A DNA stretch of 39,565 nt from Prevotella sp. (lineage in GTDB: Bacteria; Bacteroidota; Bacteroidia; Bacteroidales; Bacteroidaceae), in the NCBI GenBank assembly GCA_017413085.1, contig JAFPVC010000036.1:82874-122438 (forward strand), read 5' to 3'. Below, in pieces: positions 17,970-36,882 of this stretch; the stretch's first letter is position 1, and every line of letters starts with the position of its first letter. Under the pieces are notes generated by a model. That model saw nothing but the letters and a program-made list of their open reading frames with translations, was not told the DNA's origin and did not search any database. The translations under genes were made by a program, and so were the position numbers.

Positions 17970-19985
17970 TCATGCACCGGGTGTCAGTTTGTTCTCTTCC
18001 ATCCGCTGCATGTAACTCTGTATTATGGCCTTGAGTTTCTGCGTCATTCCCTGCAGCACGGTCTTGAGTGCGGCATCGCCTGCCATGTTGTGCTGCATCA
18101 TCCAGTCTTTCTTTATGTTGTAGGCTGCAGTGAGTTTCGCTCCGTCAAACTGTATCACGTAGTCGCCGCTGACATACTGGTATGTGCCGTTTGAGTAGTT
18201 CACCGCCCACGTGTCGGCCGACGGTGTGTTGAGCAGGTCGCACCCGAAGGCCACGTAAGGCTGGTTGTAGCCCAGATACTGCAGCACAGTCGGCATGATG
18301 TCTGTCTGCTGTGCTATGCCACTGCGTCGGCCTCGCGGCAGCTCGCCCGACGGGTCAAATATCATTATGGGTGCCACGAACACGCCGAGGTCAGTCATGT
18401 ATTCCTTGTGGTCGGGTATGTTGGTATGGTCTGACGTAAGCACGAATATGGTGTTCTTATACCACGGCTGCTTCTGCGCAGTCTCAAAGAACCGGCGCAA
18501 CGCCATGTCGGTATACCGTATGCACTTGTGTATGGGGTTGCTGCCCTCTTCCGTGAACTTGCTTGAATATTCTTCCGGCACATTATACGGCGAATGGCTT
18601 GACGCTGTGAACACCGAGGTGACGAACGGTTCGCGCATCTCGCTCATCTTCAGCGCATAGTATTGCAGGAACGGCTCATCCCATATCGCCCATGTACCGT
18701 CAAAGTCGTTGTCGCCACGGAAGCGCTTGTCTGCATTGAACTCCGTGCGGCCATAGTAATGCTTGTAGCCCGTGGTGCGCGAGAAGGCCTCGAATCCCAT
18801 GCTGCCGTTCTGCGCTCCGTGGAAGAATGCACTCTCATAACCGCACTTGCCAAGGCAGTCGGCCAGTCCGCTGACATCGTTGAGCGAAGCTGCCGTGAGG
18901 AAGAACGGTTCAAGGAAATGCGGTATACCTGACAGTATCGAGGGCATTCCGTCAATGCTTTTCCTGCCGTTGGCAAAGGTATAGTCAAAAGTCAGCGACT
19001 GCGTGAGCAGCGAGTCGGCAAACGGTGCAAAGCCTTTGTAGTGACCGCCGTCAAGCGAACTGTTGTAGCCGCCTATGTATTCACGACCAAAACTCTCTAC
19101 TATCAGCACCACCACGTTGCGACGCTTCTTCACTGCCGGCTGTGCCGTGGTGTCGGCCTTGGCATTGAACACCGGCGTATACAGCTTGTCAAGTTCCTCC
19201 TGAGTATAGTAATGCGGATTGCGAAACGTTTTCTTGCCCATGGTGCGTATTATTGAAAACGGCGTATTCAGCACTATGGCGGCTTCTGCAGGACGGTTCA
19301 CGTATTGATTGGCATTGCTGATTGTTATTGGGCGCACTGCCGTGGTGAAACCACCGCGCATACCTGCCACGCACAGTGGCACATAGATGAGCAGCATCAG
19401 TGCCTGCACCAAGTAATAGTATGTCTTGTTCGTCTTGCCGTGACTGTAGAAACGCAGCTCTTCACTGCTTACCGCAAGGCGGCAGACGGCAAAGACAAGC
19501 AATATCCACAAAACAACGAGAAACCAGTGGTTCAACAGTTCAGTGCCGATGATTTGAAGCAGGTTGTCTTCGTTAGAGAACTCACTGAACACGCTTGCGG
19601 TCGTACGGCGGCCTGTGTATTTGAAGTAGGCGGCATCTGCAAGGTTTGCCGCCGCCATAATGCTGTTTACCAACACGAACAGCCAGCGTGCAACAGCCTG
19701 CCAGGTGGGATGCTCCTTCCTATGCAGCGGCACGAGCATCATCAAGGCATACAGTGCGTTGGTGTAAAGTATGGCTGAGGTGTCAAACAAGAGGCTGCCG
19801 TGCACCATATCGACAGTCGACAATGCACTCCATCCACTGCTGAAAGCACCATAATTCGACAGAATAAATGCTATCCTGCAAATAAAATATAAGACATAGG
19901 CCAATGCCATGTTGATAAGAAACGCCGTAGCGCAAGACGCATAGCCAGCCTTCAGTGTGGGGTGAGAGTAACTATTGTTGTTCAT
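17970..19985 (-). CDS. LTA-synthase-like membrane sulfatase-fold protein (phosphoglycerol transferase family)
   Basis: The 671-residue protein has about five N-terminal membrane segments (within residues 15-215) and a periplasmic alkaline-phosphatase-superfamily domain from about 285. Metal-site features include VLIVESFGREYIG, the nucleophile region GRKSIDGMPSILSG and the C-terminal metal motif LTSDHTNIPDH. The candidate nucleophile is the Ser (or nearby Thr/Ser) in the GRKSIDG segment. In Firmicutes LtaS polymerises glycerol phosphate. In Bacteroidetes such enzymes probably transfer phosphoglycerol, phosphoethanolamine or a similar group to envelope glycans or lipids, but the substrate is not identifiable here. 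It has its own promoter (20011-20041) and is followed by priA. Confidence 0.85.
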   Translation of the reverse strand: MNNNSYSHPTLKAGYASCATAFLINMALAYVLYFICRIAFILSNYGAFSSGWSALSTVDMVHGSLLFDTSAILYTNALYALMMLVPLHRKEHPTWQAVARWLFVLVNSIMAAANLADAAYFKYTGRRTTASVFSEFSNEDNLLQIIGTELLNHWFLVVLWILLVFAVCRLAVSSEELRFYSHGKTNKTYYYLVQALMLLIYVPLCVAGMRGGFTTAVRPITISNANQYVNRPAEAAIVLNTPFSIIRTMGKKTFRNPHYYTQEELDKLYTPVFNAKADTTAQPAVKKRRNVVVLIVESFGREYIGGYNSSLDGGHYKGFAPFADSLLTQSLTFDYTFANGRKSIDGMPSILSGIPHFLEPFFLTAASLNDVSGLADCLGKCGYESAFFHGAQNGSMGFEAFSRTTGYKHYYGRTEFNADKRFRGDNDFDGTWAIWDEPFLQYYALKMSEMREPFVTSVFTASSHSPYNVPEEYSSKFTEEGSNPIHKCIRYTDMALRRFFETAQKQPWYKNTIFVLTSDHTNIPDHKEYMTDLGVFVAPIMIFDPSGELPRGRRSGIAQQTDIMPTVLQYLGYNQPYVAFGCDLLNTPSADTWAVNYSNGTYQYVSGDYVIQFDGAKLTAAYNIKKDWMMQHNMAGDAALKTVLQGMTQKLKAIIQSYMQRMEENKLTPGA

Positions 19986-20441: not shown

Positions 20442-20600
20442 AAATTTATGCAAAAAAAACATGTTCTATTTATCGTATTATTGACATTTATCAAGGTTTG
20501 TTTGCGTACACATACTTAAAAACAGAAGTATTTGTACCACTTACTGAATTTTGTTTCTGGACATCGTTCTGCTCTGCAAGAAGTCGCTCTTTAGAGCAAA

Positions 20601-20850
20601 AAAATTGTATTTAAACTGCATTTCCTTGCGATAGAAATCACCAAACTCTATTTCGGTCTCAAATATCGCAAGGAAATCGAGTTACAATTAACAACCTGAA
20701 TATCAACATATAACAGAAAGCCTTACGGCTATAAGAAGCCTGTCGCAACGTAATTGGGTACCGATTACACTGTAATCAGGTAGCGATTACACTGCAATCA
20801 GGCCCTTTTTACATTGTAATCAGGCTGCTTTAGGAGTGTAATCAGGCTGC
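20601..20850 (+). repeat. Interspersed repeat, copy 2 (opposite orientation to copy 1)
   Basis: It shares with the left edge of the window an identical 24-base core (20621-20644), the flanking TGTATTTAA and CTCAAATA words, and a terminal cluster of ATTACA palindromes. In this copy the core is part of a perfect 14-bp inverted repeat (20620-20633 with 20664-20677) spaced by 30 bases. No protein-coding capacity was seen, so it is a non-autonomous dispersed element, possibly recognised by a factor encoded elsewhere. Confidence 0.72.
20763..20846 (+). repeat. Cluster of GATTACAnTGTAATCAGG palindromic units
   Basis: Two full units, GATTACACTGTAATCAGG (20763-20780) and GATTACACTGCAATCAGG (20785-20802), are followed by two half units ending TGTAATCAGG (20811-20824 and 20834-20846). 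The first unit contains a near-perfect dyad. The spacing is 22-26 bases. Similar units lie at 1-52. Confidence 0.8.
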
Positions 20851-20993
20851 TTTTACCCGAAAATCACTCAACCAGTGAAAAACTACCTGGTAGATATTAG
20901 AACTTTACTGGTCAATATTTCGAACGATTTACTTTTTTAGAAGATTTTTTCCTTGCGTCATTTGTTCACAAATCTCCCTCATTATTTTTTACT

Positions 20994-21048: not shown

Positions 21049-21053
21049 AAAAA

Positions 21054-21575
21054 GACAACTTTGGACAACGAGGACAACTTTTTTCTCACACATCACTTCT
21101 GTCATACAGATGTTGTCGTCGTTGTCTGTGTTGTCTTCTGTTCTTCTTAAGACAACTTGGGACAACTTTGACAACTTTTTCCTCGCACATCACTTCTGTC
21201 ATACAGGTGTTGTCGTCGTTGTCTGTGTTGTCTTCTGTTCTTCTTAAGACAACTTGGGACAACTTTGACAACTTTTTTCTCACACATCACTTCTGTCATA
21301 CAGATGTTGTCGTCGTTGTCTGTGTTGTCTTCTGTTCTTCTTAAGACAACTTGGGACAACTTTGACAACTTTTTCCTTGCACATCACTTCTGTCATACAG
21401 ATGTTGTCGTCGTTGTCTGTGTTGTCTTCTGTTCTTCTTAAGACAACTTGGGACAACTTTGACAACTTTTTTCTCACGCATCCCTTCCGTCATACATTTG
21501 TTGTCATCGTTGTCTATGTTGTCTTCTATTCTTTTTTAAGACAACTTAGAACAACTTTGACAACTTTTTTCTCAC
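21054..21575. repeat. 97-bp tandem repeat array, five full copies and one partial
   Basis: Copies begin at 21054, 21151, 21248, 21345 and 21442 (spacing 97 each), with a partial copy at 21540 after a 98-base unit. The middle copies are nearly identical and the outer ones more diverged. Each unit holds three GACAAC words spaced 9-10 bases apart, a spacer with CTGTCATACAG, then three GTTGTC words spaced 9 bases apart and a GTTGTCTT/AAGACAAC inverted repeat across the unit junction. Minus-strand reading frames through it rotate because 97 is not a multiple of three, so it is unlikely to encode protein. Confidence 0.9.
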
Positions 21576-21660
21576 ATTAATCCCACTGCACAGCCAATCT
21601 AGTTAATCCGCGTAATCCGTGGTCAAAAAAAATCAGTCATCAACATACTTAACAACAAAA
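21576..21660. other. Gene-free spacer after the tandem repeat array
   Basis: This AT-rich spacer includes the word pair TAATCCGCGTAATCCGTGG, a short internal near-repeat. No promoter or reading frame was seen. Confidence 0.4.
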
Positions 21661-21695
21661 AACAAGCCGCAGGGGACTTATTCCTGCGGCTTGTT
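21661..21695 (-). terminator. Terminator of the PL1-ilvE-DUF975 transcript
   Basis: A perfect 13-bp stem (21661-21673 with 21683-21695) with a 9-base loop is followed on the minus strand by TTTTTT. It lies 6 bases after the DUF975 stop codon. Confidence 0.9.
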
Positions 21696-21700
21696 TTTGT

Positions 21701-22327
21701 TTATCCATTAATGAAAGCCTCATGTGGCGTTTCTTGTTTCAAATCTTCATAGAAATGTGCGCGTGCCGTATATATGTACGGTAGCAGAAAGAGATAGCCT
21801 ATGCCACATGACAGTATGCAGAGCAGAATCCAGCCAATAAAACTGAGGTCGAGAAGGAAAAGTTTCATCTTGTAACCCTCCATCATCTGCATACTCTTCT
21901 CTATGGCGGCGTTCTCCGTTATCTCCGGGTCATCCTTCAGTATGTATTCTGTCATAGCGTAGGAATAACTCTTGATGATGCCGGGAACGATTAACAGCAA
22001 CGTCCACAATACTGTGTAAACCATCTTCAGCAGCATGGTGATGAGAATGCGCGACCAGTTGCCACGGTAACCGTCAAACAGTTGGTCAAGCACAATCTTC
22101 TCCTGTCCGCGTACTACGTTGAGGAATATGATGATAAATCCCCACGTCATCTGAATGGTGGCAAGCGTCCATAGAAGACTTGCGTTACGGAATACGGTAA
22201 AGTTCATGATAAGTCCGACTCCACCTGTTATCAGCATATATATCAGTGTAACAATGGCAGCATCGCCCCATTTGCCTTCAAGGGAGGCTATCGCCCTGTC
22301 CTTGTATCCGGTGCAGGTGTCCATCAT
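21701..22327 (-). CDS. DUF975 family integral membrane protein
   Basis: The 208-residue protein has about five to six hydrophobic segments and the DUF975 signature LLIVPGIIKSYSYAMTEYIL (about residues 111-130), followed by the conserved DDPEITENAAIEKSMQMM. The function of the family is unknown. It begins 4 bases after the ilvE stop, so it is translated from the same message. Two adjacent ATG codons (22327 and 22324) could both serve as the start. Confidence 0.85.
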   Translation of the reverse strand: MMDTCTGYKDRAIASLEGKWGDAAIVTLIYMLITGGVGLIMNFTVFRNASLLWTLATIQMTWGFIIIFLNVVRGQEKIVLDQLFDGYRGNWSRILITMLLKMVYTVLWTLLLIVPGIIKSYSYAMTEYILKDDPEITENAAIEKSMQMMEGYKMKLFLLDLSFIGWILLCILSCGIGYLFLLPYIYTARAHFYEDLKQETPHEAFING

Positions 22328-36152: not shown

Positions 36153-36841
36153 TGGAAACGGTAGTATTGGTAATGATAGTGCTGGTCTGCTTTAATTTCA
36201 TACTGAAGCAGACCTACCGCAAGTCGTGGATGGTCGGTGCCATCTCGATATTGTGTGCCTTGTTCATTATTTTTACATGGCAGTGGTCTATAGAACAAAG
36301 CAAGCCGCAGTTGCACGACTGGCTCAACAACCAGCAACTGATGCTTGATGTCGCAGTGGTGCTCAGCATAGAGGTGGTAATTCAGATGGCATACTGCATC
36401 ATGGCTGTTCACTTGATGAACACTGGGCGCGTGCGTCGGCGTACGCTGATTGCCTACAAACTGTTGCGCTGGTTTCCCGGACTGCTCATTTTCCCTGTGT
36501 TGTTCCATGTTGAGACCATCTGCATGCAGTGGCTGACGGGAGTGGACTTTGCCATGATTGCCTACATGCTGGCAGCGGCAGTTGCCATTCTTGTTCCCGT
36601 CCTTGTCTGGTGTGTCAGGTGGCTTGTGCCGGAGAAAGAGCTGCGCCTTGAGATATTCTTCCTGTCAAACGCCCTTATTGCTATTCTCGGTGTCATCGCC
36701 ACCGTGAACGGCAGGACAGCAGTTGCCGGCATCTCGGAAGTAAATCTCAATGCTCTGCTTGGTGTCGTGGGGTTGGTTGCCGTCTTGGGCGCAATAGGAT
36801 ATGGAAGGTACAAATTAAGAGTTAAGGAGATAAGGAGTTAA
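36152..36841 (+). CDS. hmuT: HmuT-like polytopic inner-membrane protein
   Basis: The 229-residue protein has about seven hydrophobic segments (roughly 2-17, 27-45, 62-88, 107-127, 133-155, 168-187, 195-215). It occupies the hmuT position between hmuS and hmuU in the Bacteroidales hmuYRSTUV operon. Its biochemical role is not established, and a permease or partner of HmuS is suggested by context. The last residues (about KLRVKEIRS) are encoded by a simple TTAAG repeat that runs on for about 40 bases past the stop, so the C-terminus is probably a recent alteration. Confidence 0.75.
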   Translation: METVVLVMIVLVCFNFILKQTYRKSWMVGAISILCALFIIFTWQWSIEQSKPQLHDWLNNQQLMLDVAVVLSIEVVIQMAYCIMAVHLMNTGRVRRRTLIAYKLLRWFPGLLIFPVLFHVETICMQWLTGVDFAMIAYMLAAAVAILVPVLVWCVRWLVPEKELRLEIFFLSNALIAILGVIATVNGRTAVAGISEVNLNALLGVVGLVAVLGAIGYGRYKLRVKEIRS

Positions 36842-36882
36842 GGAGATAAGGAGTTAAGAAGTTAAGGAGTTAAGGAGTTAAG
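36813..36882. repeat. Simple GAGTTAAG/GAGATAAG repeat at the hmuT 3' end
   Basis: Eight or more imperfect 8- to 9-base units start inside the last codons of hmuT and continue into the intergenic space. Confidence 0.8.

Follow-up and report, generated by a model that had tools for sequence, protein, structure and literature searches.

Inverted GACAAC triplets in Prevotella: a 97-bp tandem array as a possible local expansion of a dispersed repeat

A tandem array of 97-bp units built from phased GACAAC and GTTGTC words is located at positions 21052–21576 (+ strand) of the window, the whole 39,565-nucleotide stretch of Prevotella sp. DNA that was analysed. Prevotella is an abundant gut and rumen genus. 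The balance of the evidence leans towards a scenario in which a single copy of a dispersed repeat, to all appearances non-coding, was expanded in tandem on the spot and gave the array. This repeat, the GACAAC-triplet element, features inverted triplets of words, fixed words at a fixed pitch, free linkers, replaceable centres, dispersal in the genome, and expansion in place. It is read here, with somewhat more confidence than doubt, as a MITE-, REPIN-, or BOX-like element whose ends would be recognised sequence-specifically, with the window array as its local expansion.

TRF determined a period of 97, 5.4 copies, 93% matches, 0% indels, and a score of 894 for the array, and direct reading of the words resolved it into five full units and one left arm at 21054–21564. 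Each unit in the window is laid out as GACAAC-4-GACAAC-3-GACAAC, a 33-nt centre, and GTTGTC-3-GTTGTC-3-GTTGTC. Unit 1 (21054–21135, +) consists of a left arm at 21054–21078 with GACAAC words starting at 21054, 21064, and 21073 (steps of 10 and 9), a centre at 21079–21111, and a right arm at 21112–21135 with GTTGTC words starting at 21112, 21121, and 21130 (steps of 9 and 9). The word steps of unit 1 are repeated in unit 2 (21151–21232), unit 3 (21248–21329), unit 4 (21345–21426), and unit 5 (21442–21523), all on the + strand, and the unit starts are spaced by 97 throughout except for the final step, which is 98. The sixth left arm (21540–21564, +) reads GACAAC, AACAAC, GACAAC, with a mutated middle word, and it has no right arm. 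The array copies are 91–97% identical to the reference over 194 nt. The window contains 10 complete word triplets versus 0 in 200 first-order Markov shuffles, and the phased array reported in the preliminary description is therefore real. The same description placed the array in a gene-free region, which is confirmed by the lack of any ORF of at least 90 aa between 19985 and 21701. The 1715-bp gap that holds the array is bounded by a sulfatase gene (17970–19985, −) and a DUF975 gene (21701–22327, −). Neither flank is a rep or par gene, which argues against the suggestion of a partition or replication iteron array.

Two sets of inverted repeats are present in the array, one inside the unit around the 33-nt centre and the other across the junctions. 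The junction repeat had been noticed at the outset, and the repeat inside the unit is a second one. The 15-nt linker between units 1 and 2, TTCTGTTCTTCTTAA (21136–21150, +), is of a type that recurs between later units and makes an outward-facing inverted repeat. The predicted RNA fold of one unit junction has a z of −4.5, and that of unit 3 with its flanks (21240–21345) has a z of −3.5 on the + strand and −3.8 on the − strand. Elsewhere in the genome the element often stands as a single unit, so that its native form is probably arm-centre-inverted arm, from which the junction inverted repeat follows by tandem duplication.

The reading of the array as a random single-strain minisatellite, against which the preliminary description had set its own, does not agree with the distribution of the repeat. 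A two-unit query gave 24 blastn matches at 14 places on 8 contigs of the window genome, an assembly of 2.83 Mb in 62 contigs that is 79% complete; the matches on contigs C28 and C29 are weak. Further triplets are located on contigs C4, C15, and C18 of the window genome. The near species Prevotella sp. Tb.RUG.131 (G422) gave 20 blastn matches on 12 contigs. The GACAACNNNGGACAACNNNGACAAC pattern, allowing at most 3 mismatches, has 37 matches in the window genome, of which some at 3 mismatches are right arms in a shifted register, while the reversed control has 0. A genome search for the spaced unit, which had been proposed as a check, revealed that the spacing is kept in other copies and species and that the words are conserved above the linkers.

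Many copies of the single unit share the same order, which is a T-rich flank ending in RAA, the left arm, the centre, the right arm, and a TTCTATTCATCT-like flank. The centre is 31–35 nt long in 46 of 48 aligned unit rows, and its sequence is similar within the pair formed by the window species and G422 and different in other species. The arms of the main subfamily are not mirror images, the left being spaced 4 + 3 and the right 3 + 3, a spacing that the 48-row alignment itself imposes. A second subfamily, found on C4 and C18, is spaced 4 + 4.

Conservation is concentrated in the words. For the 48 unit rows, the information content per base is 1.82 (left) and 1.83 (right) bits in the words versus 0.90 and 0.86 in the linkers. 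These rows were picked by 4/3 and 3/3 spacing with at most 6 word mismatches of 36, contain tandem copies that are not independent, and include three (window −, L023 −, and L204 −) that repeat, in a shifted register, units already present from the opposite strand. Of the close pairs of GACAAC, 56 of 63 in the fetched window-genome loci and 39 of 41 in G422 have a separation of 3 or 4 nt, and 4 of the 7 window-genome pairs outside this range are 12 or 13 nt apart, as though a word had dropped out. The 59 other permutations of the letters of GACAAC form 0–2 pairs each at a gap of 3–4 nt. In other genomes, the two arms of an element are identical at 233/252 word positions (92%) and at 46/84 positions of equal-length linkers (55%). 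Stronger conservation of words than of linkers is predicted by sequence-specific recognition of phased words, and since the words are fixed while the surrounding DNA changes, the comparison suggests that GACAAC words are probably recognised by something in the cell. Conserved words within one species are also compatible with recent common descent. The substitution spectra are alike in the left and right arms, with G1A and C6T the commonest changes, and this similarity does not discriminate between RNA pairing and protein tolerance.

The family is found in a minority of the genus. The strict 4 + 3 pattern is present in 5 of 398 same-genus genomes, the window genome included. A GAA-prefixed triplet with gaps of 3–4 is present in 17 of these genomes versus 0/398 for the reversed control, and the exact GAA form has no match in the other 381. 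An inverted partner triplet was identified within 110 nt at 14 of 23 loci, in 12 of 16 other genomes, from a search that had used one arm alone; no significant inverted partner was found at the remaining 9 of the 23 loci tested. This test covered a single place in each of the 23 loci from the GAA-form search, a subset of the matches (11 of which are in G345). For each place, the best partner up to 110 nt away in either direction was compared with 200 Markov shuffles, the result for G274 being marginal (p 0.045). The pair at L272 is a perfect inverted repeat and others have diverged linkers, and the triplet pairs in other genomes face inward or outward. The two-armed unit is also present in L118, from a Bacteroidales genome of yak reticulum. 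Phylum-wide conservation was rejected, as the plain triplet occurs in 6/395 genomes of the phylum sample and is no commoner than its reversed control (8/395), so the family looks narrow. A blastn search with the array at E 1e-5 gave no match in 72,556 plasmid and 50,697 phage records. A scan of viral contigs for the GAA form gave 5 contigs, of which the near-identical L300 and L304 carry a single triplet each in apparently non-coding DNA; the other three were judged by eye only.

Related arrangements of words were observed elsewhere. Triplets from Morganella, Providencia, and viral contigs (L137 3295–3480, L122, L144, L148, L155, L156, L158, L159, and L162) likewise consist of a GACAAC triplet, an AT-rich segment, and an inverted GTTGTC triplet, but they differ in that the linker CTA recurs and, in L137, in a location at the 3′ end of a primase-like gene. 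These triplets are probably convergent with the Prevotella element and resemble replication iterons, where "iteron" is the reading adopted here and not an annotation. Mangrovibacterium marinum (L065, L068, L071, L074, L078–L080, and others) features many dispersed direct runs of GACAAC words of the form GACAACcc GACAACttga GACAACcac GACAAC, with no inverted partner among the matches listed. Judged by eye, CGAGGTA, AATTCGTG, CGTTAAT, and GGATTTA form similar spaced-word inverted pairs (L072, L116, C4/L294, and G345 C32/L295), and GACAAC may therefore be one of several spaced-word families.

A constant chromosomal place, which the preliminary description had raised as a point to check, is not supported, given the 14 places on 8 contigs and the comparison with G422, even though some places are shared. 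The window to the right of 21657 matches G422 contig C136 at 90%, and to the left of this point C136 carries other sequence, so that the array is absent from G422 beside the same right flank. The unit on C45 is also absent from G422, and synteny breaks there. At both places compared with G422, the window locus and C45, the break in synteny falls on the element or close to it, and neither place revealed a clean empty site or a target-site duplication. Three places are common to the two species (L023/L213, L023/L207, and L027/L210), which vertical descent would give as well. The two species differ in copy number at a shared place, where the window genome has 5 units followed by 3 more and a right arm, and G422 has 4 units followed by a single incomplete one. 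Tandem expansion has recurred with other unit lengths, of approximately 223 bp on C4 of the window genome, 43 bp on C32 of G345, approximately 84 bp on C42 of G403, and 291 bp, in two copies, on C88 of G070. A direct-word array is also present in G166.

Some elements stand next to particular genes. A 1517-bp block with GACAAC units at both ends and an ATPase_2-like gene is 95% identical in the window genome and G422 and has different neighbours in each; the Pfam score of this ATPase_2-like gene is 30.6, below the curated cut-off of 33.2. Genes of ATPase_2-like, AAA_14/DUF4143, and PDDEXK_3 type lie beside GACAAC arrays (L021 5201–6330; L023 2071–3204 and 12728–13162; L024 3512–4642; L029 2–1363), and a motif scan placed them at 4/13 window-genome loci and 4/20 G422 loci, counts that, without a genome-wide background rate, carry no claim of association. 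Four of the array-side proteins were assigned by Pfam, and L029 by motif only. In L075, L076, and L164 (G226), GACAAC words were seen by eye just upstream of a GxxExxY-like gene.

In the proposed mechanism, the inverted arms would be recognition ends, and a sequence-specific protein would bind the three words of an arm cooperatively, a trans-acting transposase or recombinase being the likeliest candidate. The element would spread in a MITE- or REPIN-like manner, with the protein moving or copying the DNA between the ends. The hairpin-prone unit would then multiply in place by replication slippage or unequal recombination and give rise to the 97-bp array. The copy in the window probably has no regulatory role for the neighbouring genes. 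Like a MITE, the element is short, multi-copy, non-coding, and intergenic (outside the window this last status is partly by construction, since any ORF of which more than 15% overlapped with an element was treated as spurious and removed), and inverted GACAAC triplets at both ends provide the terminal inverted repeat. The C4 array of the window genome has a DDE transposase gene at a distance of 291 bp. A more far-reaching version, which is unlikely, sees in the phased GACAAC triplet the code by which a mobilisation system of the Bacteroidales, so far undescribed, would recognise its ends. Such a system would accept almost any DNA between inverted triplets and repeatedly leave tandem arrays at its landing sites. 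Its cargo would be the species-specific centres and sometimes whole ATPase or PD-(D/E)XK nuclease genes. If the triplets are recognition ends, they would offer a DNA probe of defined sequence with which to find a new Prevotella protein that binds or mobilises DNA, and they would account for some of the intergenic DNA found here, which is rich in repeats and rearranging. If they are merely tolerated hairpins, the contrast between fixed words and free linkers is a measurable puzzle of what holds six bases constant.

Judged by published descriptions that were available in part, the GACAAC-triplet element belongs with the bacterial short interspersed repeats and is set apart from BrickBuilt, REPINs, and BOX. 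No published account of a GACAAC-triplet repeat was present among the matches listed, which consisted of titles and abstract openings and covered few subscription papers. The closest described element found in this material is BrickBuilt of Porphyromonas gingivalis, which is a Bacteroidales species. As far as the accessible description goes, the two elements share a Bacteroidales host, an intergenic location, tandem repeats with a copy number that varies between sites, inverted ends, and the lack of an internal transposase. BrickBuilt is described as a MITE that is always intergenic, with 19 copies in one strain, and it features a 23-nt tandem unit between a leader and a tail, ends that are inverted over ~12 nt and are like those of insertion sequences, an internal tandem copy number that varies between sites, and no transposase inside (PMC4596501). 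Compared by description, the GACAAC element differs from BrickBuilt in that its arm consists of three phased hexamers and its centre differs between species.

REPINs are described as inverted doublets located in extragenic space, in which a spacer parts the two copies of a short sequence. They are predicted to fold into a hairpin and are tied to RAYT transposases, and their clusters and tandem repeats are also treated (PMC3116915). The GACAAC element is likewise an extragenic inverted doublet with a spacer that forms a hairpin in predicted folds, whereas its arm is a triplet of direct words. Y1_Tnp, the only transposase family searched, is present in 5 of 10 element-bearing genomes, and 0/7 Y1_Tnp loci in these genomes (1.8–3.2 kb per locus examined) carry a triplet or other word cluster. 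Membership in the REPIN/RAYT system was rejected on this result. In the BOX element of Streptococcus pneumoniae, boxA and boxC form the ends and enclose repeated boxB modules, and several repeat families cluster in that genome (PMC3049150). Both BOX and the GACAAC element are modular interspersed repeats with variable tandem modules and clustered repeat families, whereas, compared by description, it is the whole GACAAC unit that is repeated and not an internal module. Phased direct-word arms do not feature in the accessible parts of the accounts of BrickBuilt, REPINs, or BOX (PMC4596501, PMC3116915, PMC3049150).

Among the rival explanations, a host DNA-binding array carries the most weight, followed by an RNA hairpin and then by a neutral minisatellite. 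The first, which is improbable while deserving attention, proposes a cooperative binding array for a host DNA-binding protein (a regulator, partition, or nucleoid protein) that is kept for function and not for mobility, in which inverted pairs of phased direct repeats would load an oligomeric protein along one DNA face. The 9–10 bp pitch, the fixed words with free linkers, and pairs that face both inward and outward are consistent with such an array, but the place is not constant, 381 of 398 genus genomes have no match to the exact GAA form, the array is missing beside the same right flank in G422, and copy number varies at a shared place. The cooperative protein-binding array of the preliminary description thus survives in one part, as conserved phased words fit recognition, while a partition, nucleoid, or replication role is unsupported.

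A long structured RNA had also been suggested. As an RNA-level element, which is unlikely, the repeat would be transcribed as a long hairpin (a 3′-end stabiliser, a terminator-like stem, or an sRNA) and serve as a target of an RNA-binding protein or as an RNase III substrate. Hairpins are indeed predicted, for the window unit as given above and, with lower z, for L272 (−9.6), L060 (−8.9), L257 (−7.4), and L259 (−6.7), but most linkers are unpaired in the fold of the window unit and the window has no Rfam match at the gathering threshold. Position gives a divided picture. In other species, 10 of 22 elements (L263 among the 22 is misplaced) are no more than 40 bp away from the 3′ end of a gene, so an RNA role is conceivable there, whereas this holds for only 3 of 17 clusters in the window genome, one of which (L022 5335–5445) overlaps a gene, and for 3 of 20 in G422. 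Convergent gaps are not favoured, with elements in 2/9 of them versus 15/39 tandem and 9/17 divergent gaps; these counts, like the 3′-end distances, are based on rough, mechanical ORF calls. The gap orientations indicate that the elements do not look terminator-like in the window species, and together with the 3′-end distances they leave a terminator role there unsupported. The terminator scan found no terminator-like site, and as it admits loops of 3–8 nt only, the hairpin of the element is invisible to it and a stem at 21658–21698 was missed too. A neutral minisatellite, formed by slippage at hairpin-prone sequence and spread by homologous recombination with no recognition, is very unlikely, for although the near-identical array copies, the tandem arrays of several unit lengths, and the synteny breaks at or near repeats would suit it, drift would not keep words at 92% versus linkers at 55% between the arms of one element, nor would it account for 17 of 398 genomes having the GAA-GACAAC triplet when the reversed control is present in 0.

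Other repeats are located in the window. A 370-bp composite repeat (20597–20973) adjoins the GACAAC array and features an inverted pair around TTTCCTTGCGATAGAAATC / ATCGCAAGGAAA and a GTAATCAGG/GATTACA word array at 20750–20824; it is present in G422 too. The window segment 20550–21060 has 59 matches in the window genome, itself included, of which two are near-full at 80% identity and many are partial. The sequence at 21580–21627 is a remnant of another dispersed repeat of the CCCACTGCGCAGCCAATCCG..TATCCGTGTTC type, which is often found 3′ of GACAAC units. The stem at 21658–21698 is a perfect 16-bp inverted repeat with a 9-nt loop and a T tract, is located beside the 3′ end of the DUF975 gene, and also occurs in G422; it is a likely terminator. 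Additionally, TRF identified an 8-bp tandem repeat, TTAAGGAG, with 8.6 copies at 36815–36882.
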